DNA from: Xestospongia muta
Lineage: Eukaryota > Porifera > Demospongiae > Haplosclerida > Petrosiidae
DNA length: 64,000 nucleotides
Assembly (NCBI GenBank): GCA_963693285.1
Contig: OY848919.1
Span: 12,209,461 to 12,273,460 of the forward strand
Reading direction: 5' to 3'
Shown here: one piece after another, positions 7,503-62,649 of the stretch
Position numbering within the stretch: position 1 is the stretch's first letter
How the letters are laid out: each line of letters starts with the position of its first letter
The notes under the pieces: generated by a model
What the model was told of the DNA's origin: nothing
Seen by the model: only the letters and a program-made list of their open reading frames with translations
Database searches by the model: none
Position numbers and translations under genes: made by a program

Positions 7503-7693
7503 ATGTATTAATAATTTATTGTACATGACATACAAGCTTTAAGTCAACACATCAAAGACAACACCACTAATGCTATGAAAACTACCTTAAAAATGGATCA
7601 ACACGTAGAAGAATGGATGCATACCTTACTGTTACCATGACTCCAGCTACTCATTTTACTACATATCTTGTGTAGCCATTAGTCATCCTCAAA

Positions 7694-7900
7694 TGATATA
7701 TAATACATATAAATACATAATATAATGATATATAATACATACAAATACATAATATAATGATATATAATACATACAAATACATAATATAATGATATATAAT
7801 ACATGCAAATACATAATATAATGATATATAATACATACAAATACATAATATAATAATATATAATACATACAAATACATAATATAGTAATATATAATATAT
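7694..7900. repeat. 32-bp minisatellite array
   Basis: About six copies of the same 32-bp AT-rich unit as at 1,349 are present, flanked on the right by the MTSLTAYQ-type ORF remnant (7,905-8,020) and on the left by the CATATCTTGTGTAGCC flank. Confidence 0.9.
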
Positions 7901-8019
7901 ACAAATATGTACCTAAGTCCTCAGTTTTCTCATGAAGAGATGTTGTAAATCTCTCAGCTACCTCAACATTTCCTAGTACAACAATCACTTTTGTTATTAA
8001 CTAATATGCTGTTAGAGAT

Positions 8020-18708: not shown

Positions 18709-19164
18709 TTAATCCATACTTAATTCCAAAACCACTTCTTTCCAATCTTTCAAAAGTACTCTAGCAGCTTTAATAATGACACTTCATTCATCAATGCAGG
18801 CTCTTAAGAACTTGATGCAATGGTCCTCTAGTTCAGACCGTTCCGTTATAAAACTCATTCCTGCTTTAAATTCATTAACGATTGTATTAAAAGAAGGTGA
18901 CCTCTGAACTTCTTAGTTAATAACTGGGGTTGGTTCTTGATTGTAGATGTAAGACCTTTCATCAGGATTAGACCTTTTCTATCTGTCTTTGGGCAGTTAT
19001 CTGTAGCACTATTATAACACTCTTGAGTAATAAGATGAGCACCAAACAGCTCAGGTACTAGAGCTAATCTGTTAGCAAAATCAGAGAAAAGACGTGATAA
19101 TTCAGCAAAATGTGTTCTAACCACTTCTTCCGGTGAGGGCTGTGGGCCTAAGATATTGAAAGAG
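18709..19164 (-). pseudogene. CARD-like gene with internal deletion fusion, copy B1
   Basis: The minus strand reads the first CARD-like exon from CTCTTTCAAT (19,164) through ELSRLFSDFANRLALVPELF..., then jumps near 18,915 from the middle of exon 1 to the last part of exon 2, out of frame. The intron and parts of both exons are gone. The same junction is in the paralogue at 58,566-59,029, so the deletion predates the block duplication. Confidence 0.75.
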
Positions 19165-19679
19165 CTTAGCCAAATACTATTGCATTGTGAATGCTTTATA
19201 AGAACTGAATATAATCACCATGTGCACTTTAATGTCATGTACATACACATAATAAGTAGATACTAAAGTTTCTATAGAATAGGTTGATGTATTATATGTG
19301 GTAGGCACACTGACAAAATTACATATCTACATTACATATACATATTTTTATATTTCATTTGCAAATCAAAACTTGATAAATATTTACAAACTAACTTAGC
19401 TGATTTGATGCCATAGTTGGTGACTGTTTCCTCAATATATGGATCATCTGTTAACACACTTTCTGAGATAGATGCAGTAGATTTGGGCGTGGTCCTAATT
19501 TATTCATATATCAATACTGTGTAGCCCCACCCTGATTTCTGCAAAATGTAACCACATAAGATCTCCAGTGCCATCATGGTTTAAAATGGCCATAGAGAGC
19601 AATCATTTTTTAAATTATGTGAGAACTTTTTGAATTCTTTATTCATCTGTTTATACACTTTACAGTTTAGCTTGCTTAC

Positions 19680-20249: not shown

Positions 20250-20745
20250 GTATTATAGCTTACGTTTTTTCTCTCTGTTTAACTTCTTGATCTCTTCTTG
20301 TTTCTCTACTAATACTTTATCAGTAGCTATAGAACATAACCATATATGGTATGTACTACTAACAGTATTATAGCTCACCTTCTTTTTCTCTGGTCAACTT
20401 ATCTATTTCTCCTTGTTTCTTAACTAATACTTTATCAGTAGCTATACAACATGACCATATATGGTGTGTACTATTAACAGCCTACTACAGCTTACATATT
20501 TTCTCTTCTATTAACTTGTCAATCTCTTTTTGTTTCTCTATATAACATAAACACATATAGTATGTATTACTAACAGTATAATATAACTTACCTTCTTTCT
20601 CTCTAGTTAACTTCTCTATCTCATTTTGTTTCTCTATATAACATAACCATATATGGTATGTACTACTAACAATATGCTACACCTTACCTTTTTTCTCTTC
20701 TGTTAACTTCTTAATATCTTTTTGTTTCTCTATAGAACATGACCA
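20250..20745 (-). repeat. Coiled-coil mini-exon array
   Basis: About five units carry minus-strand exons such as LTREKE- and KEIDKLI-type peptides between TATAG and GTAAGC. The array is duplicated in the tandem unit at 22,390-22,745. Confidence 0.75.
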
Positions 20746-21572
20746 TATATATATGGTATGTAATACTACCAGTACTACCAGTAATGAACTATTAAATTAA
20801 TTCCAACTTAACAGTTTTATGTATATCAACAATGCATGTGAATTAATAAACTAAGATTCTATAATGTATATATGTTTATATATATATATATATATATGAT
20901 ACAATAATTCAACAACCAAACCATTCAAATTTTCAACTGTTCCTAGTCTAATTTCATAAAGAAATGTTCCATTTTTCATGAGATAATTGCATGCTCCTTT
21001 TATTGTGATTAACTTGGCATTAAAAATTTCTTAAGGGGTTTTCTTATTGAAAGAAACCTTATATGTGTCATATAAAACATCTTATACAACTTTATACAAC
21101 AAAATATAGGTTAAACATAGGTTGAAGATTTTTACAGGTAACAGAGCACAAAGTGGACATTTACCTGCTATAAACCCCTAACCCATTGTCTAACCAACTT
21201 TGAACTACAAACTAGTCCAGCCTGAAGTGTATCAAAGCCCAACCCATAAATGATTACTCAACAGATTCTCAATAACTTTGATGTTAATAAGAAACATGAG
21301 GTATCTATCAACAAAATAAATACCTCATGTTATAAACACCCGAACTTATTGATCACATTTTTCATTTCAGTTCCGTCCTAATAATTGAGCATTCAAACAA
21401 TTTCAAGGGCCTAAGGAGTCAGCTATGGGAAATATTTACTATAATAAGAACCACTGCTTACAAGGCTCTTTGAGTTCTTTAAAGAGGTGTTTGAGTCCCA
21501 TTGTTAGCCCGTCATGGGCTAGGTTTTAAAATTGAATAAAGAGTTCATTAGTATAAATAATAATGTATATAC

Positions 21573-21934
21573 CTTTGTTGCTAGGTGTCACAACAACTTC
21601 ATTAGGTGTATGTGAAAGGTCACGTTGCATATTATCAGCTACTGACTTGAATGCTTCAACTTTCCTTAGCGAATCTATTAGTTTAGTTAACTGGGATTGG
21701 CTCTTCATAGTAGACATAAGACCATTCATCAGAAGTAGACCCTTTTCCATATCTGTCTTTGGACTGTAATCTATAAAACTGTTATAACATTCCAGACTAA
21801 TAAGACGAGTACTAAACAGCTCAGGTGCTAGAGCTAATCTGTTAGCAGAATCAGAGACAAGACGTGATAACTCAGCATAATGTGTTCTAAACACTTCTAC
21901 TGGTGAGGGTTGTGGACCTAAGGAATTAAATGAA
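21573..21934 (-). CDS. CARD-like exon, open
   Basis: This 362-nt exon lies between an AG (CTAAG) and a GTATAT donor, starting in phase 2 and ending in phase 1. It encodes about 120 residues, including RTHYAELSRLVSDSANRL, LFSTRLISLECYNS and QLTKLIDSLRKVEAFKSVAD. The pattern of a short recognition stretch followed by about five amphipathic helices resembles CARD-type death folds. I infer a homotypic adaptor role. Coiled-coil mini-exons follow downstream; no second CARD exon is present. Confidence 0.65.
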
Positions 21935-22089
21935 CTTAGTTGTGTTGCAAAAACTGTATAACAAACTAAATAACATTACCACCTTAATGTCGTACATATG
22001 ACAAATACAAATAGCAAGTTTTTATATAGAATAGGATCATTGCTGTGCTATATGTATTGAGGCACTCTAGCAATATACTAGTGCCTCAC

Positions 22090-22200: not shown

Positions 22201-22389
22201 CTATAAAGACCATAAAACAAACAAGGCTTACATTCATTCTAAGATTAAGATATATAGCCTGAACCTTAAATACAATGTAGTTGGATTTATACCTAAACTT
22301 AATATTATTGTATGTACACTCAAATATAATATTATTCATATCTTTAATTATTCATAATATATGGTATGTACTACTAACAGTATTATAGC

Positions 22390-22745
22390 TCACCTTCTTT
22401 TTCTCTGGTCAACTTATCTATTTCTTCTTGTTTCTTAACTAATGCTTTATCAGTAGCTATACAACATGACCATATATGGTATGTACTATTAACAGCCTAC
22501 TACAGCTTACATATTTTCTCTTCTATTAACTTGTCTATCTCTTTTTGTTTCTCTATATAACATAAACACATATGGTATGTACTACTAACAGTATAATATA
22601 ACTTACCTTCTTTCTCTCTAGTTAATTTCTCAATCTCATTTTGTTTCTCTATATAACATAACCATATATGACTAACAATATGCTACACCTTACCTTTTTT
22701 CTCTTCTGTTAACTTCTTAATATCTTTTTGTTTCTCTATAGAACA
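22390..22745 (-). repeat. Coiled-coil mini-exon array, duplicated
   Basis: The mini-exon array is the twin of 20,370-20,745 with small differences, such as a shortened intron motif near 22,665. Confidence 0.75.
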
Positions 22746-29949: not shown

Positions 29950-30525
29950 CCTCAAATGATATATAATACATATAAATACATAATATAATGATATATAATA
30001 CATATAAATACATAATATAATAATATATAATACATACAAATACATAATATAATAATATATAATACATACAAACACATAATATAATAATATATAATACATA
30101 CAAATACATAATATAATAATATATAATACATATTAATACATAATATAATAATATATAATACATACAAATACATAATATAATGATATATAATACATACAAA
30201 TACATAATATAATGATATATAATACATACAAACACATAATATAATAATATATAATACATACAAATACATAATATAATAATATATAATACATATTAATACA
30301 TAATATAATAATATATAATATATACAAATACATAATATAATGATATATAATACATACAAATACATAATATAATGATATATAATACATACAAACACATAAT
30401 ATAATAATATATAATACATACAAATACATAATATAATAATATATAATACATATTAATACATAATATAATAATATATAATATATACAAATACATAATATAA
30501 TGATATATAATACATACAAATATGT
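29950..30525. repeat. 32-bp minisatellite, longest array
   Basis: About 18 copies of the 32-bp unit are present. A higher-order repeat of roughly 190 bp, marked by the variant CATATTAATACATAAT, recurs at about 30,130, 30,290 and 30,450, showing recent expansion. The long minus-strand Tyr/Ile/Cys ORFs here are by-products. Confidence 0.92.
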
Positions 30526-33478: not shown

Positions 33479-36400
33479 TTAATTGCCTGGTAAGAAGCCT
33501 TTCAAGAAAGTTCCAACTTGGTTAATATAATTCAAAACTGTAGTAAAGAAAAAGCAAATTGCCATAATTTATTTTAAATATTTTAATTATAATTAACCTT
33601 CTAAATATCCATGTTTCTTTAAAAGAACCAAAGTGAGCACAATGAAAACAAATAAAAGAACTACTATCAAAACTGCATGTAAATTATATAAAGATAGAGA
33701 AATAAACAACTACTATAATAAATTTCATGTTTTATTAACAACACTTTGTATATTAAAAATCAACACATACCTGGGTTAGCTCCAAGAAACCATAAAAGAA
33801 ATGGTATTATCATGAGCACAATAATGATAAATATTTCTGTACAATGACCTGCAATGATATTTTGTTAAAAGTTTCAAAGAGAACAATTTACCTTTCAATG
33901 GTCCAAAATTGCAGCAGAAATAAAGGACAACAACTCCAATAAAAGATATAACAGTACATATAATTATAAGTATATAGTTGTCTACAACATATCAGTAAAA
34001 GAGCTAATAAATAGTATATATAGTGGTATACCAGTGCCTTCTTTCAAAATATTATCTTGTAACGATGGTTGTACTATCTGATCTATTAAAGAATAGAATT
34101 AGTATATTTTAAGTCAACTTAAAGTTATAACATACGACCAACAAATGCTTCATATTCTGATTCATAATGAGTGTTATAAAATATTATCATTGAATCCTGG
34201 GCAGAACAGTTACTATTTGTTTCCCATTTTATCACTACACTATCAGTGCTTGAATCATTTTCTGATGTCATCATTACCTGAAATAACATAGGATTAATAT
34301 AGGAATATAGGATAGTAATGAATATAGGAAGTCATCAATATCATTATTACATACATTTAACTTTAATTGGTTCTTCTTAATAATCCTCCAACAACCAACA
34401 GTCTTTATTTCCAGAGATAAAACAGTTCCATTCATTACTATATCAATTGGGACATCATCAGCTATATATCCATTATTCAACAACTCCTCTCTCTCTTTCT
34501 GAATAAAGTATTAACAATAATTATAATGGCATATGATATAAGAAACCTTATGTTTTGATTCTGATTGGGAAATTAGGGCACGTATTTTCAAGGAAGGGTT
34601 ACTATCATAATGATTTTCTTGTCGGTAAAAGGACAGAAAATATTTAGCACTAATGTTGTTAGGTCCAATGGCTGTGAAATTGCTTAAATCAGTCAATTGA
34701 AATGTAATAAAGCTAGAGCTTGGTTCAGTATAGCCTTGTAATATTTCCGTTTTTCCCTCATCATTTCGGTGAAGAATGACAAGTGACTTAGCTTCTACTT
34801 CAGTAGAGATAGCTGCATTATGCTTTAGTGTAATTGTCAATGGTTGTTGTAGTTTTTCACTGACTCTTATTTCATAAGTTGGAGAAAAACTTTTATATCC
34901 TTTTGGGATCATATATTGATGAGAATGATGTGTAGAAACTAATATATCAATGTTATGTCCCTTTGTAAAGCTTCCAGGTGGTATATCCATTCTAAAAGAA
35001 TCATCTGCCCACCATATTATGTCTGCTGTTCCTCCGATGACATTCTTTTTAATATAAGGTGTGGCTATAGGAATTAGAATTGTTTAATAATGTGTATAAT
35101 TAAAATACTGATTAAAAGACCTTGATCAAATTCTTCTGTGCACTCATTATCATTCATCCATTCATCTTATGTATGAGTTTTACAGTTTAGCTTGCTTACT
35201 TTCTTTTACATGTACATCTTTGAGCCAAACAACACCAATTGCCAGTAGTAAGATAATTAAAAAGGCTATGATCATCCACATTCCTAAATAATGAATATTA
35301 TAATTTTAATATCAGACATAGTAATTTGAACAATACATTTTGAGAAAATATCCATGATATAAGTTGTACAAATAAAACATTGCATATTCCATGATATGCT
35401 GCATTATAAAGTAGGAATAACTAATCCTATATAATTTTTGTATATGTAAATAAAATCACATATAGAAATTTATCAGGTCCAAGAACTGATACTATATAAT
35501 AATATGTACTACTAACAGTACTATCAATAGTAGATGAGAGGAAAGAGAATGTCCAATGTCACATAGTACCATAGAAACACTCTGGAAAGTAATGTGACAT
35601 ACATGAGCTATAGTTCTGTAAATCAGTACATAGTCTCAAAGTAAACTCTCATAGTGACGTCATCAAAAGAGTACTATGTAGTGTTAGACACTCTCTTCCC
35701 TCTTATCTATTCTTAGGACTATAGCTTACCATTTTTATGTTTGGTCAACTTCTCAATCTCTTCTTGTTTCTCTACTAATACTTTATCAGTAGCTATAGAA
35801 CATAACCATGTATGGTACGTACTACTATCAGTATTATAGCTTACCTTCTTTCTCGTTGGTCAACTTATCAACCTCTTTTTGTTTCTCTATAGAACATAAC
35901 CATATATGGTATGTACTACTAACAGTATTATAGCTTACCTTCTTTCTCTCTGGTCAACGTATCAATCTCATTTCGTTTGTCTATAGAACATAACCATATA
36001 TGGTATGTACTACTAACAATACTATAACTTACCTTCTTTCTCTCTGGTCAACGTATCAATCTCATTTTGTTTGTCTATAGAAGATAACCATATATGGTAT
36101 GTACTACTAACAGTACTATATATAGTTTACCTTCTTTCTCTCTGGTCAATGTATCAATCTCTTCTTGTTTATCTATAGGACATAACCATATATGGTATGT
36201 ACTACTAACAGTACTACAGCTTACCTTCTTTCTCTCTGGTTAACGTATCAATCTCTTTTTGTTTGTCTATAGAACATAACCATATATAGTATGTACTACT
36301 AACAGTACTATAGCTTACCTTCTTTCTCTCTGGTCAATGTATTAATCTCTTCTTGTTTATCTATAGAACATAACCATATATGGTGTGTACAACTAACAGT

Positions 36401-37637
36401 ATTATAGCTTACCTTGTTTCTCACTGGTCAATGTATCAATCTCTTTTTGTTTGTCTATAGAACATAACCATATATGGTATGTACTACTAACAGTACTATA
36501 GCTTACCTTCTTTCTCTCTGGTCAATGTATCAATCTCTTCTCGTTTATTAATAGAACATAACCATATATGGTGTGTACTACTAACAGTATTATAGCTTAC
36601 CTTGTTTCTCACTGGTCAATGTATCAATCTCTTTTTGTTTGTCTATAGAACATAACCATATATGGTATGTACTACTAACAGTACTATAGCTTACCTTCTT
36701 TCTCTCTGGTCAATGTATCAATCTCTTCTCGTTTATTAATAGAACATAACCATATATGGTGTGTACTACTAACAGTATTATAGCTTACCTTGTTTCTCAC
36801 TGGTCAATGTATCAATCTCTTTTTGTTTGTCTATAGAACATAACCATATATGGTTGTACTACTAACAGTATTATAACTTACCTTCTTTTTCTCTGGTCAA
36901 TGTATCAATTTGATTTTGTTTGTCTATAGAACATAACCATATATGGTATGTACTACTAACAGTATAATATAGCCAATATACTATAACTTACCTTCTTTCT
37001 CTTTTTCTAACTGTTTAATGTGTTTTTCCATTGCTATATAACAACCATATATTGCATGTAGTACTAACAATATACTATAGCTCACCTTCATTAATTTCTA
37101 TTAAATTCTTAATAGATTTTTCTTTTGCTATAGAACATAATCATATATTGCATGAAGTACTAACAATATACTATATCCTACCATCTTTATCTTCTTTTAA
37201 CTTATCAATAGATTTTTCCTTTGCTATATAACAACCATATATTGCATGTAGTACTAACGATATACTATATCTTACCATCTTTATCTTCTTTTAACTTCTC
37301 AATATGTTTTACATATTCTATAAAACATAACCATATATTGCATGTAGTACTAACAATATACTATAGCTTACCTTCAATACGGTTGTTATATACTATAGAA
37401 CATAAACATATATTGCATGTAGTACTAACAATATACTATAGCTTACATTTTCTGTCTTTTTTTAACCGCTTAATACACTCATCTTTATCTATAGAACATA
37501 ACCATATATGGTATGTACTACTAAAAGTATAATATAGCCAATATATTATAACTTACCTGTTTCCTCTACTTCCTCTTCAAATTCTTCCACTTGTTCCTCT
37601 TGTTTCTCTTGTTTCTCTGCTGATACTTTATAAGTAA
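33479..37637 (-). CDS. Gene F: long coiled coil, TM, ZU5-like, multi-TM protein
   Basis: On the minus strand about 20 coiled-coil mini-exons (37,637-35,730) lead to a TM exon (35,283-35,200, MWMIIAFLIILLLAIGVVWLKD). Next come a ZU5-like exon (about 35,060-34,555, with KNVIGGTADII, IPKGYKSFSPTYEI and TEVEAKSLVILHRNDEG), a small exon (about 34,500-34,365), an exon with TSENDSSTDSVV (about 34,274-34,128), a DQI exon and a TM exon with an intact TTGTAG acceptor (about 33,981-33,891). Two more TM exons (about 33,849-33,775 and 33,675-33,601) and a last exon ending FLPGN plus TAA at 33,479-33,481 complete it. All junctions checked keep frame. I see no start exon and no LRR, Death or CARD exon attached; the 5' end is unresolved. 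ZU5 domains in UNC5, ankyrins and PIDD are protein-binding, so I infer a membrane receptor or scaffold. Confidence 0.75.
35531..35715. mobile_element. MITE-like element, second copy
   Basis: It has the same inverted ends (TAGATGAGAGG... and ...TCTTATCTATTCTTA) as 20,021-20,205. It sits in the intron between the TM exon and the mini-exon array of gene F. Confidence 0.6.
35730..37637 (-). repeat. Coiled-coil mini-exon array of gene F, about 20 exons
   Basis: Exons measured exactly are 35,730-35,792 (63 nt), 35,845-35,886, 35,939-35,980, 36,992-37,033, 37,086-37,127, 37,182-37,223 and 37,447-37,488 (all 42 nt), 37,372-37,392 (21 nt) and 37,557-37,637 (81 nt). All fit phase 1-1. Introns are about 52 nt and share the CATAACCATATATGGTATGT motif. 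Three successive two-unit repeats (about 36,400-36,840) alternate donor-side variants ACCTTGTTTCTCAC and ACCTTCTTTCTCTC, a recent expansion. Peptides are of the type KQNEIDTLTREKE. Confidence 0.9.
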
Positions 37638-41987: not shown

Positions 41988-44900
41988 TCATGGATCTTTT
42001 GGATTTATTAATTGGCTGCTAATAAGCCTTTCAAAGAAAGTTACAAATTGTTCAATACTATTCAAAACAGCTGTAGTAAAGAAAAAGCAAATTGCCATAA
42101 TTTATTTTAAATTTATAATTATAATTAACCTTCTAAATATCCATAATTCTCTAAAAGAACCACAATGAACACAACAAAAACAAATAGAAGAACTGCTGTC
42201 AAAACTGCATGTAAATTATATACAGATGAAGAAATAAACAACTATTATATAAATTTTATGTTCTTATTAACACCTTGTGTATTAAAAAATCAACATATAC
42301 CTTGTATAGCTTCAAGAAACCATAAAACAAATGGTATTATCATGAGTACAATAATGATAAATATTTCTGTACAATGACCTGCAATGATATTTTGTTAAAA
42401 TTTTCAAAGAGAACAATTTACCTTTCAATGGTCCAAAATTGCAACAGAAATAAAGGACAACAAGTATAGCAATCAATATAATTATAAGTTTACAGTTGTC
42501 TAAACTCTCCAGTAAAGTTGTCAATAAATAATACATATAGTAGTATACCTCTGAATTTCTTCAAAATAATATCCTGCAACTTTGGTTGTATTATCTGATC
42601 TATTAAATAGAAGAATTAGCATTTAAGTCAACTTTAAATTATAACTTACGATTAACAAATGTTTCATATTCTGTTTCATCGTGTGTGTTACGAAATGTTA
42701 TCTTTGATTGCTGGACAAGACAATTATTACTTGTATTATACTGCATTACTACACTACCAGTGTTTGAATCATCTTCTGGTGTCAACTTTACCTGAAATAT
42801 AATTGTTTAATTGATATGTCTATCAATAAATAACATACAATTAATTGGTTCTTATCAGTAATATTCCAACAACCAAAGGGCTTTATTTCAAGTGATACAT
42901 CAGTTCCATTCACTACTAACTTGAGAGGGATTGGGTTATCATCAGCTACCCATTCATGTTTCAACAACTTCTCTCTCTGATTCTAAATAAAGCAATAACA
43001 CTTAATTATAATAAAATATTGTATAAAAACCTCATGTCTTGGCTCTGATTGGGAAACAAGGGCAAGTATCTTCAAGTAAGGACTACTATCATGATCATCA
43101 CTAACTTTTTGCCGGTAAAAGGACAGAAAATATTTAGTATTAATGTCATTAGGTCCAGCAACTGCTACATCACTTAATTCAGTCAATTGAAATGTAATAA
43201 AGGTACAATTTGGCTCAATATGGCCATGTAATATTTCTGTTTCTCCCTCATCACTTTGGTGGAGAATAACAAGTGACTTAGCTTCTTCTTCAGTAGAGAT
43301 AGCTGCATTATGCTTTAGCGTAATTGTCAAGGGCTGTTGTAGTTTTTCGCTGATTCTTATTTCATAAGTTTGAGAAAGAAGTTTATATCCTTTGGGGATC
43401 ACAAATTGATGAGAGCGACGTATAGAAACTACTATATCAATATTATGTCCCTTTATAAAACTTCCAGGTAATATATCCATTCTATAAGAATCATCTGGCC
43501 ACTGCATTATGTCTGCTGTTCCTCCGATGACATTCTTTTTAATGTAAGGTATGTCTATAGGAATTAAAATTGTTCAATAAAGTACACAATTAAAATACTG
43601 TTTGAAACTCCTTTATCAAATTCTTCTGTGCACTCATTATCCATCCATCCATTCATCATATGTTTACATTTTAGCTTGTTTACCTTCTTTTATTTGTACA
43701 TCTTTGAACCAAGCAACAACAAGTGCCAGTAGTAGGATAATTAAAAGGACTATGATCATCCACATTTCTACAAAATGAATATCATAATTATAAATTTAAT
43801 ATCAGATGTAAAGTAATTTGAACAACATATTTTGAGAAAATATCTATGATATAATTGTACAAATAAAATCTTGCATGCTCTGAGATATACTGCATTATAA
43901 AGTATAATTGAGAATAACTCATCCTATATAGTTTTTGTGTACATAAATAAAATCACATGTAGGGATATTTCAAGTCCAAGAACTAATACTTTATGATATG
44001 TACTACTAACAATACTATCATTAATAGATAAGAGTGTTCAGTATCACATAGTACCACAGAAACACTGTGTGAAAGGTATGTGACATGCATGAGCCATAGT
44101 TCCATAATCAATACATAATCTCAATGTAAACAGTTTAACTTGTTTACCTTCTTTTACATGTACATCTTTGAACCAAGCAACAACAATTGCCAGTAGTAGG
44201 ATACTTAAAAAGGCTATGATCATCCATATTCCTACATAATAAATATTATAATATAAATTTAATAATTTAATATAAGTATACAAATAAAATCTCACATATT
44301 CTATGATATGCTGCATTATAAAGTAGTAATAACTCACCCTACATAATTTTTGCATATATAAATAAAATCACATATAAGAATGTTTCAAGTCCGAGAACTA
44401 ATACTATATGATATGTACTACTAAGTACTATGAAGAATAGAGTGTCCAACATCACATAGTACCATAGAAACACTTTGTGGTAGGTACATGACATGCATGA
44501 GCCATAGTTCCATATATCAGTATGTAATCTCAAAGTAAACACTCACAGTGATGTCATGGAAAGAGTACTATGTGACATTGGATACTTTCTTCCTTCTTAT
44601 CTACTCTTAGGACTATAGCTTAACATACCCATAAATGGTATGTACTATTAACAGTATGCTATAGCTTACTTTTTTTCTCTCTAGTTAACTTCTCAATCTC
44701 ATTTTGTTTCTCTACATAACATAACCATATATAATATGTACTATACTAACAGTAGCTATAGCTTACGTTTTATCTTTACAGTTAACCTTTCGATACCATT
44801 ATGTTTCTCTATATAAAATAACATTATATGGTATGTACTACTAAGCAATATGCTACAGCTTACTTTCTTTCTCTCTAGTTAACTTCTTAATCTCATTTTG

Positions 44901-47900
44901 CTTCTCTATATAACATAACCATATATGGTATGTGCTACTAACAGTAGCAATAGCTTACTTTGTTTCTCTCTAGTTAACTTATCAATCTGATTTAGTTTCT
45001 CTATAGAACATAACCATATATGGTATGTACTACAACAGTACTATAGCTTACCTTTTTTCTCTCTGGTCAACTTTTCAATCTCTTCTTGTTTCCTACTAAT
45101 ACTTTATCATTAGCTATAGAACATAACCATATATGGTATGTACTACTAACAGTATTATAGCTCACTTTCTTTCTCTCTGGTCAACTCCTTAATCTCTTCT
45201 TGTTTCTCTACTAATACTTTATCAGTAGCTATAGAACATAACCATATATGGTATGTACTACTAACAGTATTATAGCTCACTTTCTTTCTCTCTGGTCAAC
45301 TTCTTAATCTCTTCTTGTTTCTCTACTAATACTTTATCAGTAGCTATAGAACATAACCATATATGGTATGTACTACTAACAGTACTATAGCTCACTTTCT
45401 TTCTCTCTGGTCAACTTCTTAATCTCTTCTTGTTTCTCTACTAATACTTTATCAGTAGCTATAGAACATAACCATATATGGTATGTACTACTAACAGTAC
45501 TATAGCTCACCTTCTTTCTCTCTGGTCAACTTCTTAATCTCTTCTTGTTTCTCTACTAATACTTTATCAGTAGCTATAGAACATAACCACATATAGTGTG
45601 TACTACTAACAGTATTATAGCTTACCTTTTTTCTCTCTGGTCAACTTCTCAATCTCTTCTCGTTTCTCTACTAATACTTTATCAGTAGCTATAGAACGTA
45701 ACCATATATGGTATGTACTACTAACAGTACTATAGCTCACTTTCTTTCTCTCTGGTCAACTTCTTAATCTCTTCTTGTTTCTCTACTAATACTTTATCAG
45801 TAGCTATAGAACATAACCACATATGGTGTGTACTACTAACAGTACTTTAGCTCACTTTCTTTCTCTCTTGTCAACTTCTCAATCTCTTCTTGTTTCTCTA
45901 CTAATAATTTATCAGTAGCTATAGAACATAACCATATATGGTATGTACTACTAATAGTACAATGTGATAGGTACATATATAGTCATGTACTTGTTAGTAT
46001 CTCCTTTACAAAACACTGACTATATATAACTATAATGTATAGTATGTAGATTACCTGATTTATTATTGAATTTGGTAGAGATCTGTTTACTAGTGTCAAC
46101 AACAATACTCTCCTTCTCTTGTGGTGCACGTAAGCCTGACAATAAAAGATGAAGAAAAGAAATAATGCCTTGCTCAGCTAATAAATCACAATTAAAGTTG
46201 ACACTATCATATGTAACATACCAGGAATGACCTCTTTCTTGCCAAGACAAAGTAAAGCATCTTCAAGTTGTGTCAATGTACCTCCTTTTAGAGCCCATTC
46301 CTCTAACAAGTACTTCATTTGTTCTGAACAATCTCTTTTATTTCTGATATCAGTCAGTACAGACTGATCTATATTAAGTTGTAGACCAAGTTGTTCCCAA
46401 TCTTCTTGTACTGGTTGTAGAATAACAGCCAATGTGGGAAGATAGTTGGAAATATCTGAAGTAACATATAGTAAATAAAATAATTAATTTTGTTGCATTT
46501 ATTACCTGTAGTCTTTGGGAACTGTTGTTTATACTCTTGGAGTTTTATTTGAAGTGTTGTTATGATCTCTTCCTTTTTTCTAGTAACAGCTTCTAGTTTA
46601 CAAGTAAGTTGAGCTATATGTCTATCTTTCTCTCGTTTTGTACTATGTAAATCATGATCATCATTAGTAGAAACACTAACTATAATCAATGAGAAAATAA
46701 ATAGTAATAAGTACTGTCTTTGGTAGAAAAGTAGCTGTACTTAAAAAAATTAAAGATTAAATTAATGATTAGTCTCATCCCCAGCTGATTTTGCCTTAAG
46801 CATAACTGGCTGGAGGAAAGACTACTAAACTGTATTCTCATCCATTTTCTTGTTAATTATGGCATTTTAAAAAGTGGCTGTTTAATTGACCTGCTGAAAC
46901 CACAAATTTGATTTTTGAAGTGCTCAAAATTAGGTCTACAAAAGCAAATAGACTATAAAATTAATATATGTTAAAGCATCTTTAAAATAATAGCTAAACT
47001 CTTTTTAATTTTTGAGTTTTAAATCAGCTACAAAAGAAAAAGCATAGACAAAAAGAAGACCTTTCTGTAATTTCTATTGTAATGATACTTAAAAACATTG
47101 CTTTAACCTGTAAATCAGTCATCATTTGTGGAAAAAGAAAGATTACCAAGTATTTAGACTCCAATATTCAATGTTTTGCAATGTCAATACATTTCATTGG
47201 ACAATGAGTACATTGAGAGTGCTACTACAATTTTTTGCAATTATAGCATGTTTGAATTAAGTAAGTGAAAATACTACATACCTGTTTCACTTGGCTTTTC
47301 CATTACAAAATAGAGTTTGTCTTTAATACTACAATAATCATTAATGGTCTTGCAAATTTTCTCGTGTTGTTCGGATAATACGAGCTGTTGTATTGTAGTA
47401 CTTTCAGATAGTGCAGTGCTAATTATCTTAATATCATCGTCTTTTAGTGAAGTATTGCGGAGGTACAGTATTTTCAATGATGTAGGTGTTTTTATTAATT
47501 CAACTATTGCACTGGTACTAGCTGAAGTGATCCCAAGATTATTGCTGACAGCTAACATAGTCAATGTTTGATTTTTAGCAACCCCTTCACAGATATATTG
47601 GACACCTTTATCAGTGATATCACAGTTGGAGAGGTCTAGTATTTTCAATGTCCTGTTATTACTTATCACTTTAGACAAGCAATTTACATCATCATCTGTG
47701 ATAGGAACATTCCACAGGAATAATCCCTCAAGTGAAATGTTAATTGGTGCTAGAGCATAAATAACTTGTTGAATACTGCCAATAGGGAGAGAGGAGGAAT
47801 TAAACAGTAGTTTCTTTACTTTAGTAAATTTCGTTGACAACGTTGATATGCACCTACTGTCGAGTGAAGTGTCTTCTATAGAAAGTTCCTTCACTGCAAA

Positions 47901-49433
47901 CTGATCGAGATTGTCTATAAGCACTAGGGCACTTTCAGTAGCTGATGATCGGAGTTCAATACGCCATAATGATTTTTCTCGTATCTTTTTTTCTCGTTTT
48001 AATCTACTCACAATATTTTCGCATTGTTCAATACTTGGTGAAATGACTAAAACACTATGGTCATCATGTCTCCACTCAACACTTGCAGTGTCCCCTGTAA
48101 TAAAACAGATTTAGTAATACACATGCAGTTAAATATATGCATAAAGAACATACAGGTTTACTTAGTGTTCACAGGTCTGATGTTCATACTTATATACAAA
48201 CCATAGAGGAATCAAATTGATTATATCTCTGACTATAAACAAATCTTGAGCTATATACACCATTCTGTTTTTATCAATTCAAATCTGCTGAGTATTTTAA
48301 ACAATTCTTAAAATACATACACATGTCTAGGTGTAAACAGTTACAGAAATTAGATTGCTTAAGTCAAGGATTCTAATTTGTATAACTGTTTTCACCTTGA
48401 TGTATCTAAGAGCTCAACATCTGGTTCACACTCATCAAAAAGTATGATGGTGCAATCTAGGATTAGGTAATTTTAAACCAGATGCGACACTGAACTACAT
48501 GTAGTTATAACATTACTTATTTGGTATAATCTAGGACCATGTAAGTTTAAAGCAGACACAGCACTGAACTACATGTAATTATAATAGTACTTATTTGAGA
48601 CTCAGTATGATTGTACCTTTGAAAACAATATTTCAGATATCTTAATAAAATAGACATAAGTAATTGAGTATAGGATGAACTATAGCCTCTTTCCATTGGA
48701 TATGAATGAAAAACTACTCAATGTAGCATGCAAGATAATTATATATAATTGTATAGTACACATCATAGATAATATATACATGTTGCTAAAATTCTTAAGA
48801 TTACTAAACATACTATTGTCATTTTTAATTAGCTTACGTTTCAATCCATATTTAAACAAAACGTTGTTAGCCATATCTCCAAATGTTTTCCATAACAAAC
48901 CATCAATCTCATTGCGAGTGAGGTCATGTGTTTGCTGCCATCCAAGGACAAACGTAATTGACTCATATTTAAAAGAAGTTGAGACTTTTGTTACATCCAA
49001 TACTCTGTCTCTAAACTCCACACAAATCTCATAAACTGCTGATTTGTAGGTTGTGATATGAGGTCTAGCATTTTCAATCCTATAATGATCAACTATTGTG
49101 TCCAAGCAGGCAATGTCAGTTACAGTACACTTCTCTTTTATTATTAACTCCATAACATTTGGAAATAATTCAGTTGTAGACAATCGAGGTTTTAGCTCTT
49201 CGAAACATTCTTCAAGAAACGTTTTGAATTCTTCAAGTGAAGGGATACCCCCAGCAATAACAGGTACAATAGCATCAGTAAGTTCTCCAAATTTTGATTT
49301 TATTCGATCAAAATAGTTCTTATAATCAGAAGATAGATGGAGCTTTATTTCACTACCTAAAAAGTGATAAATATTACATTGTAATAAGAATTATAACAGT
49401 GCGCATCTTACCTAGCTTTGTTTTTGCTGCCAT
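41988..49433 (-). CDS. Gene E: helical domain, LRR, Death, coiled coil, TM, ZU5-like, multi-TM
   Basis: N-terminal exons on the minus strand: 49,433-49,412 (MAAKTKL), 49,356-48,838 (173 codons, all-helical, with IPSLEEFKTFLEECFEELKP and DLTRNEIDGLLWKTFGDMA), 48,094-47,282 (271 codons, six or seven RNI-type LRRs such as LKILDLSNCDITDKG), 46,679-46,506 (coiled coil), 46,455-46,222 (Death domain, EDWEQLGLQLNI and YLLEEWALKGG) and 46,135-46,055 (linker). Every junction is phase 1 and in frame. Then come twelve mini-exons, two TM exons (44,231-44,148 and 43,767-43,684), a ZU5-like exon (43,554-43,031), small exons, three TM exons and a last exon ending NPKDP plus TGA at 41,988-41,990. The product is about 1,250 residues. 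I infer a membrane-linked recognition or death-signalling receptor; the combination is not one I know. Confidence 0.82.
43684..44231 (-). CDS. Duplicated first-TM exons of gene E
   Basis: Two 84-nt phase 1-1 exons, 44,231-44,148 (IWMIIAFLSILLLAIVVAWF) and 43,767-43,684 (MWMIIVLLIILLLALVVAWF), arose by tandem duplication of about 450 bp including the flanking intron. Including both adds a second membrane span and would flip the topology of everything downstream; including one keeps it. Mutually exclusive use is plausible. Confidence 0.75.
44431..44610. mobile_element. MITE-like element, third copy
   Basis: It has inverted ends as in 20,021-20,205. A partial copy of the left end lies near 44,025-44,055 within the duplicated TM-exon block. 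Confidence 0.55.
44670..45918 (-). repeat. Coiled-coil mini-exon array of gene E, 12 exons
   Basis: 63-nt exons: 45,918-45,856, 45,803-45,741, 45,688-45,626, 45,573-45,511, 45,458-45,396, 45,343-45,281 and 45,228-45,166. A 62-nt exon, 45,113-45,052, has lost one base. 42-nt exons: 45,000-44,959, 44,905-44,864, 44,808-44,767 and 44,711-44,670. Each starts with two and ends with one codon base. Introns in the 63-nt block are 52 nt. A typical peptide starts ATDKVLVEKQ and ends EEIEKLTREKE. Units repeat every 115 bp. Confidence 0.95.
46690..47281. other. Intron of gene E
   Basis: This is AT-rich non-coding sequence between the LRR and coiled-coil exons. Nothing else is seen. Confidence 0.7.
48095..48837. 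other. Intron of gene E
   Basis: This intron lies between the helical-domain and LRR exons. It contains a short direct repeat (about 48,475-48,510 and 48,535-48,570, both with CACTGAACTACATGTA). No other feature is seen. Confidence 0.7.
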
Positions 49434-49915: not shown

Positions 49916-52900
49916 AAATTTAAACTATTCACTGTGTAGATACAGGAAGTTATTATAATAGATAAACATCCTGACTCGTGGCTGCTGAGCAACCTTCATG
50001 AATGTGATAAGTATATTCATTGTAATACCATTGAAACTAATTTAAGAATGGATCAATATAAACAAATGGACATATAGCTCTTGTCATGATTATTGGATGC
50101 TTTCACATAACAGCACTTCCTTTACCTGTGTATCTTGCTTATGGCTACTAAAGAGTTAATAGTTCATGATTGATACTCAGTATTATCGGTTTGTAGATTC
50201 TTACTGTCATGATTATATAGTAGGGCACAATTCATCCATTGGCTAAAAGTAGGTGGCCTTCCAAGTACCATAAACCATACTATAAATGGACTTGACTTTC
50301 TTCCCTAACCAAATGTGTTGACAGCAGTGAAATTACCATAAAAAAGTAATTGATTACAATTACCATTATTTCTGTTATTCATCACCCAATTTCAATTACC
50401 AATTACACCCTACAAAGCAATTACAACAACAAATTGATAGCAATTACACACAATTACAATAGTTATTATCACTACCCTATACAAGTGCTCTACATCATTC
50501 ATGACCATGTGTATGAAGGTTACAGGGCAATTTGCAAGTTTCATAAAACCATATTGTGGCTTTCTTTGCCATAATAATTATGGTCATATGTACATCATGT
50601 GATTCGATGACCCTTTACCAGACTAGATTTATTGTATAGTAGCTTAGCCATCCAACTAATTTTCAATTACAGATATACGATTACAATTATAATTACAATT
50701 TTTATGAACAATGTAATGATTACAGCTAATTACAATTACCAATTGCAATTACCCCAACAATGGTTGATAGGCCCATGGTAGGGTGATCTTTCTTGTCACC
50801 ACAATTAGGGATTTCCTGGTTTTTTCTCATTTGCTAAAAACAGAACAAAGGAATAGTTTCTTCTTCATTTTTAATAATAACATGTTCCGAGATTTAACAC
50901 CTGTGTTATAATAGTTTGGCTCTTATCTCTCCAACCTTGTACATTAAAGAAACTCACTCGTGTATCCATAATTATGTGTCCTAATTAATCCTGCATTCTT
51001 GGTAATAGTGATTGTTATGTAAACACCACATTAGTACACACATAAACTAAAGTCGCTAGTTGGCTAAATTACAGTGCATATCTGATTGTTTCTCATTTAT
51101 AGATGTCCTTAATTGATATGAAATTTTTGAAATGATATCATTTTCTTTACATTGTAGACTTGAGACAAAACTTGTATGGTTACATATCATTGCTTTAACT
51201 GTTCAGGTACAATGTAGTTTTCATATGCACTACAACTGTTGTTGAGAAAATCCTATCTGTTGTTTAGATTATGTTTAACTATAAGTACCTGTTGACATAC
51301 TTGTGACTCTAGTACTCTTGAGGTTCTGTTAGTAGCCAGCCTTATGAAATATGAAGTGAGATCAATGTCATTGCCAATTAATTAGCTATAAATTATGTTA
51401 GGCATATGTCCAGCTACTCATTTTACTACATATCTTGTGTAGCCATTAGTCATCCTCAAATGATATATAATACATACAAATACATAATATAATGATATAT
51501 AATACATATAAATACATAATATAATGATATATAATACATACAAATACACAATATAATGATATATAATGCATACAAATACATAATATAATGATATATAATA
51601 CATACAAATACAGAATATAGTAATATATAATATATACAAATATATACCTAAGTCCTTAGTTTTCTCATGAAGAGATGTTGTAAATCTCTCAGCTACCTCA
51701 ACATTTCCTAGTACAACAATCACTTTTGTTATTAACTGATATGCTGTTAGAGACGTCATTGTTGGTATTTTAAAAAAAGGGTGTTACCTTTAATAAAGAA
51801 TTGAGCATTTAGCTGCCATTAATCTCATCAACAATTCTCTGTTATCAAATATTGCAAATCATGAGTTAGATGAAGAGTAGTCATGTTAACTGATTAAATA
51901 ATTGAATTATGACTTTAGCATTCATTTTCCCAATATTAACATTAGCTGCTAATGAAGGAAGTTATGATAGATAATTATAGCTATGACAAGTTTGTGCCCT
52001 CATAGATATAAATGTAACAACAAATAAATGATGAATTGATGTATACCTTATCTTATAATAATTATAACAACTGGCAACATTTAAAACATTATTTAACAAA
52101 ATTAATAGTAAAGAGAGAAATTTGCTATATGAGGCTGTTTATGAAGTGACAGGACTTTGTTTGAAATTTAGAGATAATATGGTAAAATTGTGCATGTGTG
52201 ATTAATCATTACATCATTGTATTTTCTGTCAAATAGTATTTATTCAAAATATCAAAATAAGTAATAAGTCCAACTACACAACACATGTTCATATACTGTC
52301 AGTTTTAGCTATACATATAAGTACTTATGTTTACAAAGTATAGATAGTTGTATATAATAGTTTTTCTTATTTATGAATCATCTCGATTTATCAGTTGCCA
52401 GGTATAAGGTTTGTCAGGAAAGAGCCTATTTCGCCAAGCATACCCAAAACTGTAGTAGAGAAAATACAGCAGTGCCATAATAATCTAATCTATATATATT
52501 AAAATTGCAATTAATCTGTTTGAAATTCATATATCTCTCCAAGAATTGAAATGATCTGTAAGAAAGGTATCGATATAAGTGCTGTAAAGGCCGTAAATCC
52601 TAAAGAGGCAAAATTAACAACCATCATAATGAATTGTATTAACATTCTGTATTAAAAATAATATATAGTATACATAATTATACCGTATATAGCTTCATGT
52701 TTCCAAACAACCACCAATATTATTATGAGTGCAAGAATTAATACTATTCCTATACCATGATCTGTAATGATATTATGTAAATTTTGTTAAAACTTCAAGA
52801 GTAAAGTTTACCTTTCAAGGGTCCACATTTATAACAGAGATGAAAGGCAAGAAATCCAATAAAAATAGATATTGTAATTATATAATTGATTATAACATTT

Positions 52901-54830
52901 CAATAAAATAGCCAATAATTAGTATGTAGTGGTATACCTCTGACTACCTTCAAAATAATATTTGGTTCTGTTATCTGATCTATCAAATGATATATATAGT
53001 ATATTTTAGTGAACTTAATATATTATAACGAACGGCCAACAAATGTTTCATATTCTGCTTTATCATGAGTGTTCTGAAATCTTATCCATGATTGTTGAAC
53101 CAGACAGTTATTTGTATTATACTGCATTACTACACTACCAGTGTTTGAATCATCTTCTGATGTCATCGTTATCTGAAATATAATTGTTTAATTTATAAGT
53201 GCATAAATAAATAACATACAATTAATTGGTTCTTATCAATAATGTTCCAACAACCATTAAATTCTATTTCCAGAGATGTGTCAGTTCCATTCACTAATAA
53301 TTTGTGAGGAATTGGGTTATCATCAGCTATAAATCCTTTTTTCAATATCTCCTTTTCATTGTTCTAAAACATTGGCAAATAATAATAAAATATCTATAGT
53401 ATTAAAAACCTCATGTAGATGTTTTTGCTCTGGCTTGGAAACAAGGGCAAGTATCATCAAGGAAGGATTACTATCATCACGAGCTTTTTGTCGGTAAAAG
53501 GACAGCAAATATTTAGCATTAATGTGGTTATATCCAATGACTGTTACATTGCTTAATTTAGTCAATTGAAATGTAATAAAGCTAGAGCTTGGTTCAGTAT
53601 AGCCTTTTATTATTTCCATTTCTCCCTCATCACTTTGGTGGAGAATAACAAGTGACTTAGCTTCTTCTTCAGTAGAGATAGCTGCATTATGTTTTAGTGT
53701 AATTGTTAATGGTTGTTGTAGTTTTTCACTGACTCTTATTTCATAAGTTGGAGAAAAAAATCTATATCCTTTTGGGATCATATATTGATGTGAACAACGT
53801 GTAGAAACTAATATATCAATGTTATGTCCCTTTGTAAAACTTCCAGGTAGTATATCCATTCTAAAAGAATCATCTGCCCACTGTATTATGTCTGCTGTTC
53901 CTCCAGTGACATTCTTTTTAAAGTAAGGTATGTCTATAGGAACTGTAATTGTTAAGAAATGAACACTAAAGCAAGATTATAGTTGTAAAAATTCCATGCA
54001 CTCATCATCTGTCCATCTATTTATTATGCGTAGAAATTTTAGGACTTAGATTGCCAGCTTACCTTTCTTTACATCAGTACTAGTAATAACAATTGCCAGT
54101 ATTGCCATAATTATTGAAAAAAATATAATCCTCCATTTTCCTACATAATTAACAATAAAATTAACATTTAAAACAAGATTACAATTGAAGAAATCATCCT
54201 ATGATTGTTTTGGAATATACTGATTTAACAGTAAAGCATTATCTAGAGCTACAAAGTCTGTATAATTAGCAGCAATGTCTGTGGAATACTATAGCTATAA
54301 AATACTAGAAAAAGTGTCTGAGACACGAGCTAACACTAGCAAGAAGGTTTAAACATGATCAGCCACACTCATTGTCATAGGACTCATGGTTAGAGTTAAT
54401 AAAATTCATTGACCTTTACTAATTTGAGGATAGTAATATTACAAAAACAATTTTAAGACAATATTACAATTACTGTCTTGTTTCTCTACTAATACTTTAT
54501 CAATAGCTATAGAACATAACCATATATAGTATGTATTACTACCAGTACTATAGCTCACCTTTTTTCTCTTTGGTCAACTTCACCATATCTTGTTTCTCCA
54601 TTAATACTTTATCAGTAGCTATAGAACATAACCATATATGGTATGTACTACTAACAGTATTATGGCTTACCTTCCTTCTCTCTGGTCAACTTCTCAATCT
54701 CTTCTTCTTTCTCTACTAATACTTTATCAGTAGCTATAGAACATAACCATATATGATATGTACTACTAACAATACTATAGCTCACCTTCTTTTTTTCTAG
54801 TCAACTTCTCAATCTCTTCTTCTTTGTCAT
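49915..54830. repeat. Segmental duplication A, copy 2
   Basis: It matches 1-4,815. The left part, 49,915-50,170, is also found at 60,880-61,150. The match ends in the coiled-coil array near 54,830, followed within about 140 bp by the start of duplication B. Confidence 0.9.
51461..51645. repeat. 32-bp minisatellite array
   Basis: This is the paralogue of 1,349-1,525, with a similar unit number. The MTSLTAYQ-type ORF follows at 51,645-51,759. Confidence 0.9.
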
Positions 54831-54832
54831 GT
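52391..54832 (-). pseudogene. ZU5-like multi-TM family gene, copy A7, damaged splice sites
   Basis: It has mini-exons (about 54,832-54,470), a TM exon (about 54,142-54,065, KWRIIFFSIIMAILAIVI), an open ZU5-like exon (about 53,940-53,410), a small exon (53,362-53,225), an NCLVQQSWIRF exon, a DQI exon, TM exons and a TGA at 52,391-52,393. As in A1 there is no AG before the second TM exon. In addition the donor of the last TM exon reads CAG/ATTAAT where A1 has CAG/GTTAAT (about 52,512). The ectodomain half is intact but the membrane tail probably cannot be spliced normally. Confidence 0.7.
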
Positions 54833-54971
54833 AATTCATTATCAGCAATACCTATAGAACATACATAACCACATATTTTAGCCCCCCTAATCCCTACTAT
54901 CTTCCTACCCCTATGCTTTGAACTTAATATATATAACAATGTGATCACTATAAATAGTAAATAGATTGTGT
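54833..54971. other. Junction between duplications A and B
   Basis: This short stretch contains TTTTAGCCCCCCTAATCCC and matches neither flank. It joins the end of block A to the start of block B, which lie 10 kb apart in the first copy. Confidence 0.65.
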
Positions 54972-59319: not shown

Positions 59320-60290
59320 CATAGGCGGCTGCAGAACTGCAACCCCACCCGGGCAGGAAAAGGGTGTGGTCGAATTTGGGGTGTGGTTAAGTTTATTTAT
59401 TAATATTATTAATGTAAAAGGAGCTACTGTTTTTATGAGTCTGTGAAAACTTTAAAACTAGTTCGTCAAGAATGTCCCAAAGTTTGCTAGACACATCTCT
59501 TTCGATGTGCAGTAGAGCCAAGTTACAGAGATGTTCCTGCGTGTTTCCAATCACAGAAATCACTGTACGTTAGACATCTATCAGCATTAACTCCAAAAAA
59601 ACGGCAAGAAAAACAGAATACGCAATCTCTCTCTACTGAATACTCGATCCATGGAAATATCTGATACCAGCTTGATTGGAAGGACCTTTTAACTGTCCCA
59701 TACATCTTAGAAGGAAAGGTAATGCCTTCAGGCTGAACTGGTCTGTCACTTTTATTCTTTGCTATATCCCTGGAAAGACTAGTAGAAGGAAGTGCATCAA
59801 GTACTGTAGCAACTTCATTTGATGATCCACTCTCAATATGTTCAACTACAGGGGTAGATAAACTGAAATGAAGTCATAAAATCACAGCAATTTTAGACAT
59901 GGAAGATGTACTGTATGATTTTTCATACTGTGTGACAGTGACCTTGTGATCCTGTGCATCAGTGCATGCTGTGCTTGAATCTTGATCATGCAACATGCAA
60001 CATGCTCCAGGCTTGTTTGTACAAGTTATTCTTACTATCAGTATCTTCCTCTTGGGAATCTGTTATCCTCAACCTCTTAGTAGTCAGTGTGGTGTTGTTA
60101 ATAAAAGAGAGTAAGGAAGCCTGACGTTTAGCCATAATAACTTTGAGGGTACTAATATTGTAATAACAAACACTTATTATTATTATGTAAATTATGATGT
60201 AATAACATGTGTTCAGGGCATTATTTAGAATTGCTTGGTCAAGTCAACCCGGTCATTGCCCGTGTATGCCCGGGCCTGCAGCCGCCTATG
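59320..60290 (-). mobile_element. Internally deleted hAT-superfamily DNA transposon
   Basis: The 971-bp insertion has perfect 15-bp terminal inverted repeats (CATAGGCGGCTGCAG) and an exact 8-bp target duplication, TCTGTTAA (59,312-59,319 and 60,291-60,298). The paralogous empty site near 19,450 has a single TCTGTTAA. The minus strand encodes an N-terminal MAKRQASLLSFINNTTL (start at 60,134) and, at 59,705-59,523, a TTF/ZMYM-type zinc-finger segment (KRSFQSSWYQIFPW, CVFCFSCRFF) typical of hAT transposases. The catalytic core and dimerisation region are missing, so it is non-autonomous. Confidence 0.93.
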
Positions 60291-61795: not shown

Positions 61796-62643
61796 TTAAT
61801 CCACATTTAATTCCATACCCACTTCTTTCCAATCTTTCTGAAGGGCTCCAGCAGCTTTAGCAATGGGACCTTTTATATCAATGCAGGCTCTTAAGAACTT
61901 GGTGCAGTGGTCCTCTAGTTCAGATTGTCCCGTTATATAACTCATTCCTGATTTATATTCATCAATGATTCCATTAAAAGAAGGTGACCACTGAACTTCA
62001 TTGCTGATGAGACCAGCTGCAAACATCTTACTGGCTAATGCTGGCAGACAATTTCTACTTGAATCACATAACTCAGCATGATGTTCAGTAAGGACATCTA
62101 TGACTGAGCGTCTCAGTTTAGGAACATCAGTAACTATAGCTAACAAAGAAAAAAAGGTTGAAATTATTTTTCTAAGTAATATCAAGTCAATGTTTACAGT
62201 ATTAGTAAAGCCTCTTTAAAATACAGTTTGGGATCTCTTATAAATTGAAACATAGTAATAGATCATAGGAACAAATACCTTTGTTGTTAGATGTCACAAC
62301 ACTTTCATTAGGTGTATGTGAAAGGTCACGTTGCATATTATCAGCTACTAACTTGAATGCTTCAAATTTCCTTAGAGAATCAATTAGTTTAGTTAATAAC
62401 TGGGGCTGGCTCCGAATAGTAGTTGTAAGACCTCTCATCAGTAGTAGACCTTTTTCCATATCTGACTTTGAGCTGTTATCTGTAGCACTGTTAAAACACT
62501 CTATAGTAATAAGACGAGCACCAAACAGCTCAGGTGCTAGAACTAATCTGTTAGCAGAATCAGAGACAAGACGTGACAACTCAGCATAATGTGTTCTAAA
62601 CACTTCTACTGGTAAGGATTGTGGACCTAAGGAATTGAAAGAG
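61796..62643 (-). CDS. Tandem CARD-like domain protein, intact exons
   Basis: Two exons: 62,643-62,279 (365 nt, phase 2 in and phase 1 out) and 62,139-61,796 (344 nt, ends with TAA). The first encodes RTHYAELSRLVSDSANRL, LFGARLITIECFNSATD and QLLTKLIDSLRKFEAFK. The second encodes HAELCDSSRNCLPALASKMF, ITGQSELEDHCTKFLRAC and DWKEVGMELNVD. Each looks like a six-helix death fold of CARD type. They join in frame. At least one upstream exon is needed; the coiled-coil exons at 63.5-64.0 kb may belong to it, but their phase 1 end does not fit directly. It is the only undamaged two-CARD copy here. I infer a cytosolic adaptor in death-fold signalling. Confidence 0.7.
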
Positions 62644-62649
62644 CTCACT

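Follow-up and report, generated by a model that had tools for sequence, protein, structure and literature searches.

The window analysed here, a stretch of 64,000 nt from the sponge Xestospongia muta (contig C3, positions 12209461-12273460), carries on its minus strand a family of genes with tandem arrays of very short exon-like units. The array studied most closely, at 44670-45918, belongs to the gene designated G. It is probable, in our judgement, that this tandem-unit array is of hybrid origin, that it encodes a heptad-repeat linker and that it has been remodelled by unequal crossing-over. Inside a multi-domain death-fold gene, units of one exon plus one intron, 115 bp (63+52) or about 94 bp (42+52) long, would have been duplicated in tandem. 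Once spliced, they would code for a helix of heptad repeats that probably forms a coiled-coil linker joining a death domain to a membrane segment. Later crossovers between near-identical units would gain or lose whole units, and as a result the linker would change its length mostly in whole heptads. The array structure itself is real, and the quantisation in heptads is mostly, not strictly, held.

The exons and introns of gene G, as well as the order of the exons, were placed by eye and by script from open reading frames (ORFs) and splice sites. The array consists of 12 exon-like units. The first seven are 63 nt long (45856-45918, 45741-45803, 45626-45688, 45511-45573, 45396-45458, 45281-45343 and 45166-45228, in order of transcription), unit 8 measures 62 nt (45052-45113) and the last four measure 42 nt (44959-45000, 44864-44905, 44767-44808 and 44670-44711). 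The in-frame units are in phase 1-1, and the 11 intervening introns, with GT...AG ends, have lengths of 51-55 nt (52 nt in 7 of 11). If all 12 units are joined, the frame is lost at the frame-shifting unit 8 and stops follow; without unit 8 the array is open for 203 residues. A preliminary description of this DNA had already given the seven 63-nt and four 42-nt exons, their phase and the introns of about 52 nt correctly, but the 62-nt unit went unmentioned. For gene F it had counted six 42-nt exons, one of 63 nt and one of 21 nt; the array of this gene (35730-37488, minus strand) has 18 measured units, all of 42 nt except one of 21 nt, and a 63-nt unit can be read after them at the end. The rule of the preliminary description that every unit is a multiple of 21 nt holds for 151 of the 173 units that we surveyed in 26 arrays of the same genome and fails for 22, unit 8 of gene G included.

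This survey started from searches of 158 Mb in 28 contigs. The genome is that of an animal by its Wnt genes, a family known from animals: Pfam wnt gave 9 matches, all above the cut-off, at three places, and none in 14 control genomes. Of at least 62 matches to the gene G array (40 of 194 candidates were scored), 59 fall on contig C3. The 3' core of the intron, with up to 3 mismatches allowed, had 310 hits in the genome and an acceptor-plus-exon pattern had 276, whereas the reversed control patterns of both had none. Thirty-eight loci and the window were merged into 30 blocks (177,314 bp), in which only arrays with at least two parsed units were counted and single-unit places were excluded. Under this filter, which is stricter than the first measurement of the window, arrays A, C, D and H contribute 9, 4, 2 and 2 units instead of 12, 5, 4 and 3. 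The loci had been chosen by highest similarity to the gene G array or its intron and are thus a non-random sample, and the units share descent by duplication and are not independent trials. The 173 units stand in arrays of 2 to 27. Their lengths are 63 nt (91 units), 42 nt (59), 60 nt (9), 93 nt (4), 66 nt (3), 36 nt (2), 79 nt (2) and 21, 45 and 62 nt (one each); 170 of the 173 are multiples of 3. The two 79-nt units are probably parse errors, because a GT sits 63 nt into them. Among the units of 93, 66 or 36 nt, nine in all, seven stand first among the parsed units of their array. Intron lengths range from 40 to 68 nt, with 52 nt in 133 of 173.

The predicted phase is free of stops in all 150 units that measure 63 or 42 nt. 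With the distinct substitutions placed at random, about 9 stops would be predicted, namely 5.7 in the 66 unique 63-nt units and 3.6 in the 42-nt units (the latter calculated for the common type, 33 of 45 unique units). The heptad register was examined by comparing all seven possibilities, and the one with a at residues 6, 13 and 20 and d at residues 2, 9 and 16 ranked highest both in conservation and in hydrophobic share. It is the best register for the 63-nt units and for the full set of 42-nt units alike (permutation p 0.002 and 0.006). In six of the seven arrays with at least 8 units, the strongest hydrophobic period of the spliced product is 3.50-3.51 residues. The heptad register postulated in the preliminary description is supported by the conservation of a and d and by the period of 3.5 residues.

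How the units might be spliced can be read in part from their boundaries. Retention of an intron would lead to an in-frame stop in 167 of 170 introns, three codons in for 149 of them. The acceptor is lost in 12 of the 173 units. All 11 acceptor-dead units of 42 nt, which are of two sequence types, have their first AG 9 nt into the exon, where it would leave a frame-keeping exon of 33 nt (11 residues); among live 42-nt units the first AG has this position in 4 of 48. Keeping the frame is not special in itself, because the first internal AG does so in 117 of the 161 live units too. If the AG 9 nt in is used, the acceptor-dead units, then 33 nt long, would likewise violate the 21-nt rule. The idea that every acceptor-dead unit is skipped is weakened by this frame-keeping AG. 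In the window, units without an AG acceptor are found in array A at 4658-4699 and 5126-5167 and in array F at 36507-36548 and 36695-36736, the two in gene F being 42-nt units with CTATTA at the acceptor. The array at C3 12137688 has seven copies of one of the acceptor-dead sequence types.

It might be thought, as in the preliminary description, that such an array is a splicing device, in which the subset of units joined differs from one cell or tissue to the next and the length of the coil is tuned by exon skipping. With the in-frame units in phase 1-1 any subset would keep the frame. Neighbouring introns are near identical (mean 92%), so that splice sites would discriminate poorly between units, and unit 8 of gene G must be skipped if the protein is not to stop ahead of the transmembrane (TM) exon. 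On the other hand, the units without an AG acceptor may start at the AG 9 nt in rather than be skipped. Moreover, self-pairing of introns as a means of looping or skipping had to be rejected: neither the 40 commonest introns on average (mean z 0.22) nor three introns of the window folded better than shuffled sequences, and no looping structure was found. We consider splicing of this kind an unlikely explanation of the arrays. The reading preferred here, tandem duplication followed by unequal crossing-over, would have the units spliced as we have placed them.

The explanation for the length of 63 nt may lie in a group of dispersed genes (L031-L038) in which the same intron is found, mostly beside a coil exon of 126 or 129 nt. 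This arrangement is likely to be the founder state of the arrays. The intron occurs ten times in the eight loci. It is followed by an exon of 126 nt (six heptads) in five places, of 129 nt in two and a 63-nt unit in one, and two places have no clean exon. The first 39 nt of the unit agree with the sequence 3' of the intron at the dispersed places in 35-38 positions. Its last 27 nt agree in 19-22 positions with the 3' end of the exon that precedes the intron, a score above all 300 shuffles in ten of ten places, but in only 10-16 positions with the downstream exon of the same place, except for a score of 22 where the downstream exon is itself a unit. In two of the ten places the longest word common to both exons is AGAGATTGA, and a crossover there would produce an exon of exactly 63 nt with a copy of the intron on each side.

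These comparisons suggest that two adjacent coil exons recombined with their heptads in register and that the unit is the resulting hybrid. In other words, a founder gene would have possessed one 52-nt intron between two coil-coding exons, and an unequal crossover from the heptad codons of one exon into the in-register codons of the other would have given a hybrid 63-nt exon, flanked on both sides by copies of the same intron. We infer both this hybrid origin and the direction from founder to array. An in-register hybrid origin would account for the 63 nt and for the quantum of 21 nt without any appeal to purpose, and the purposeful 'device' of the preliminary description is not needed. The quantum would then be due mainly to in-register origin and descent, and would be maintained by selection on the frame and on the a and d residues.

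Alternatively, selection for the heptad register, and not descent, might have fixed the quantum of 21 nt through the purging of off-register units. The 151 units that are multiples of 21 nt and the conserved a and d positions would both fit. However, off-register 60-nt units have themselves been amplified (9 copies in 5 arrays), only three of the ten distinct lengths (21, 42 and 63 nt) fit the quantum, and a length of 63 follows from the hybrid origin by itself. We consider selection a somewhat unlikely source of the quantum. That the intron is an independently moving element was also considered and found unsupported: at ten of ten places in the eight dispersed loci it lies between coil-like coding sequences. 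The hits for the intron core and for the acceptor-plus-exon pattern are similar in number, and not all of them were read.

Gain or loss of a single unit can be seen in two paralogues at 13.114 and 13.138 Mb of contig C3. They are 95.8% identical over 3286 aligned bases, and just one internal gap reaches 5 nt: it measures 115 nt, equal to one exon plus one intron, and lies within the array, which has 5 units in one paralogue and 4 in the other. Gene A, whose array (4430-5558, minus strand) has 12 measured units, is a chimera joined inside its own array. The 5' flank of this gene is 94.5% identical over 1499 bp to a locus at 12.137 Mb and 87-91% identical to one at 12.184 Mb, and finds no match in three others; the 3' flank is 94.0-95.8% identical to those three loci, and its identity is 82.0% with the locus at 12.184 Mb and 78.7% with that at 12.137 Mb. 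The stretch of gene A that matches gene H starts at 4697, likewise within the array. Genes C and D are 97.8% identical over 1700 bp, and their match stops inside array C; on the side of D it ends at 22356, just beyond the last unit of that array. A period of three units is present in two of the seven large arrays. Crossovers of the kind that seems to have formed gene A would exchange the N-terminal and C-terminal halves of paralogous genes. The unequal crossing-over that had been proposed in the preliminary description gains direct support from the 115-nt indel, from the arrays of 2 to 27 parsed units and from the chimera.

Several observations weigh against the interpretation given so far. 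As to the origin of the unit, five of the ten founder places imply lengths other than 63 nt (34, 75, 78, 78 and 119), and in three of the five that do imply 63 nt one of the two exons is a unit already. As to the later history of the arrays, we found no concerted evolution of exons within them on average, identity being 0.827 within arrays and 0.839 between them, so that homogenisation of exons is not evident; for introns the values are 0.920 and 0.886. The units of 60, 62 and 66 nt break the heptad register. In the 12 most divergent 42-nt units the preferred register reaches only p 0.064, and a second register ties with it on conservation. The seventh of the large arrays, which has four 60-nt units, peaks at 3.45 residues, and its power at 3.5 is 8 compared with 112-293 elsewhere. 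Only about half of the a and d positions carry hydrophobic residues, and the coil may therefore be weak or dependent on a partner. The 63-nt units show 183 nonsynonymous and 87 synonymous changes against 181.5 and 74 expected, which is near neutral apart from the stops, and one change in the 42-nt units would be a stop if taken alone, although no actual unit contains that stop. Finally, a typed composite of spliced units found no predicted protein at E<=0.001 among 7996 candidates scored.

The near-neutral ratio is also what might be expected if the arrays were tandem repeats undergoing decay in pseudogenes, or a satellite that is neutral and has splice sites by chance, and the frame-shifting unit of gene G, the 12 lost acceptors and the abrupt passage of array D into unrelated sequence point the same way. 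Against decay stand the absence of stops from 150 units where about 9 were expected, the conserved a and d positions, the downstream ZU5-like exons, which are open in genes A, F, G and H, and the frame-preserving AG in all 11 acceptor-dead 42-nt units. We regard decay or a satellite as distinctly improbable.

From N- to C-terminus gene G reads as a short first exon, a death-effector-domain (DED)-like fold, leucine-rich repeats (LRRs), a charged exon, the death domain, the coil, one or two TM exons, a ZU5-like domain and further exons. All of these are on the minus strand, and Pfam was scanned with the gene in pieces (ORFs of less than 50 aa and several short ORFs were left out). The probable first coding exon (49412-49433) starts ATG GCA GCA AAA, both the start codon and the splice site being predictions. 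It is followed by the exon with the putative DED/PYD fold (48838-49356), a fold match that carried the tool's own warning, and by the LRR exon (47282-48094; Pfam LRR_6, E 1.2e-8, 34.8 bits, cut-off 23.4). The charged, coil-like exon (46506-46679) was placed by its ORF and splice sites and has no Pfam family above the cut-off. The death-domain exon (46222-46455) matches Pfam Death PF00531 with E 1.9e-8 and 34.7 bits for the trimmed protein and E 3e-8 and 34.1 bits for the ORF of the window (cut-off 22.6). A linker exon ahead of the array, ending in phase 1, is predicted from splice sites at 46055-46135.

Beyond the array there are two copies of a putative TM exon (44148-44231 and 43684-43767), each of 84 nt by hand count and in phase 1-1. 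The first is hydrophobic by inspection, and the two are 76% identical across 29 residues. They may be alternative or successive, and which side of the membrane the ZU5-like domain faces would depend on whether one or both are used. The exon of this domain lies at 43030-43554 (the 3' end is approximate). The Pfam family ZU5 finds no match in the window member and is present in 4 of 34 relatives (best E 0.0017); in the fold comparison, GAIN-domain structures score close behind ZU5. At least 102 matches to this ZU5-like last domain were found in the genome (150 of 277 candidates were scored), and 34 of these reach E 1.3e-21 or better. More exons of gene G, some of them hydrophobic, follow downstream. 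No immunoglobulin (Ig) family was present among the pieces scanned. An extracellular position for the 'stalk' of the preliminary description is unsupported, as the coil sits between the death domain and the TM exon; no search for a signal peptide was made. The coil would presumably dimerise, and its length would presumably matter to the cell.

Other arrays of the window, all on the minus strand, are array C (20264-20729, 5 units), array D (22394-22735, 4 units) and that of gene H (54559-54851, measured units of 66, 63 and 60 nt). Array D ends abruptly at 22341-22360, where the intron after its 63-nt unit passes into unrelated sequence, and gene D looks truncated. Repeated minus-strand ORFs at 62241-62648, 61799-62215, 21529-21975 and 18858-19214 sit upstream of other genes of the family. 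By eye they resemble a CARD/death-like fold, and the only Pfam family in the ones scanned is RXLR_WY. We judge this match probably spurious: it reached 29.9 bits in one ORF of the window (cut-off 26.7) and 18.1 bits, below the cut-off, in a paralogous one. A 32-bp tandem repeat (AATGATATATAATACATACAAATACATAATAT or near variants) occurs in four places, 1359-1528, 7692-7907, 29955-30522 and 51459-51646. The minus-strand ORF 59526-59873 resembles the TTF-type zinc finger of a transposon-derived gene.

On a wider reading, the array would serve an innate-immune-type receptor family as a genetic ruler and at the same time as a recombination hub. Heptads would be gained and lost between the death domain and the membrane, crossovers within the array would exchange signalling and sensing halves between paralogues, and splicing of interchangeable units together with intron retention would let a single gene produce membrane-bound and soluble proteins of many lengths. 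Taken as a whole this is speculative, and we think it rather unlikely. What the family appears to have preserved are the intermediates: founder genes without the unit, the hybrid unit, the gain or loss of a single unit and a chimera. Two questions become testable in this way, namely how a protein rod turns genetically adjustable in length and whether receptor halves are reshuffled by crossing-over at the arrays.

In the 54-nt exons of collagen, the exon clusters of Dscam and the micro-exon genes of Schistosoma, small repeated exons can be gained, lost or chosen with the frame intact. These cases have other quanta and folds, and the mutually exclusive use of the Dscam clusters is not implied for gene G. 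In the BG genes of the chicken, members of the butyrophilin family, the excerpted accounts describe a cytoplasmic tail with a presumed heptad coiled coil encoded by many 21-nt exons, with occasional ones of 18 or 24 nt (PMC5938342, PMC4046983). According to the same excerpts BG is a multigene family with hybrid genes, changes in copy number and gene-specific exon counts, in which read-through into an intron truncates the tail (PMC5938342, PMC4046983). As in BG so described, the predicted coil in Xestospongia is built from many tiny exons in whole-heptad multiples (151 of 173) with few off-size exons, the number of repeats varies between members of the family (2-27 parsed units), hybrid genes are present, and retained introns would truncate the protein by in-frame stops (167 of 170). 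Unlike the 21-nt exons of BG, each of one heptad, only one of the 173 units here is 21 nt long, and 63 and 42 nt dominate. The coil exons of BG come after the TM exon, and those of gene G come between the death domain and the TM and ZU5-like exons. BG is an Ig-V protein and no Ig family was found in gene G as scanned; the likeness is one of gene structure.

The domains of gene G recall another sponge family. The partial account of the TRADD-N/Death-fold expansion in Amphimedon describes a large lineage-specific family with N-terminal death-superfamily domains, variable C-termini and frequent LRRs (PMC8195603). Heptad exons are not mentioned in that account, and the likeness to gene G lies in the set of death-fold and LRR domains. 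Among the matches listed by sponge-directed and by heptad- and mini-exon-directed searches of the open-licence literature, as judged from titles and the starts of abstracts, no description of such arrays other than that of chicken BG was found. The kind of array is already known; within the reach of the literature search, both the present case and the history visible in it are new. The genes of Xestospongia appear to be a second, separate case in which the length of a coiled coil is set out in countable exon units, here in a death-domain family with domains other than those of BG.

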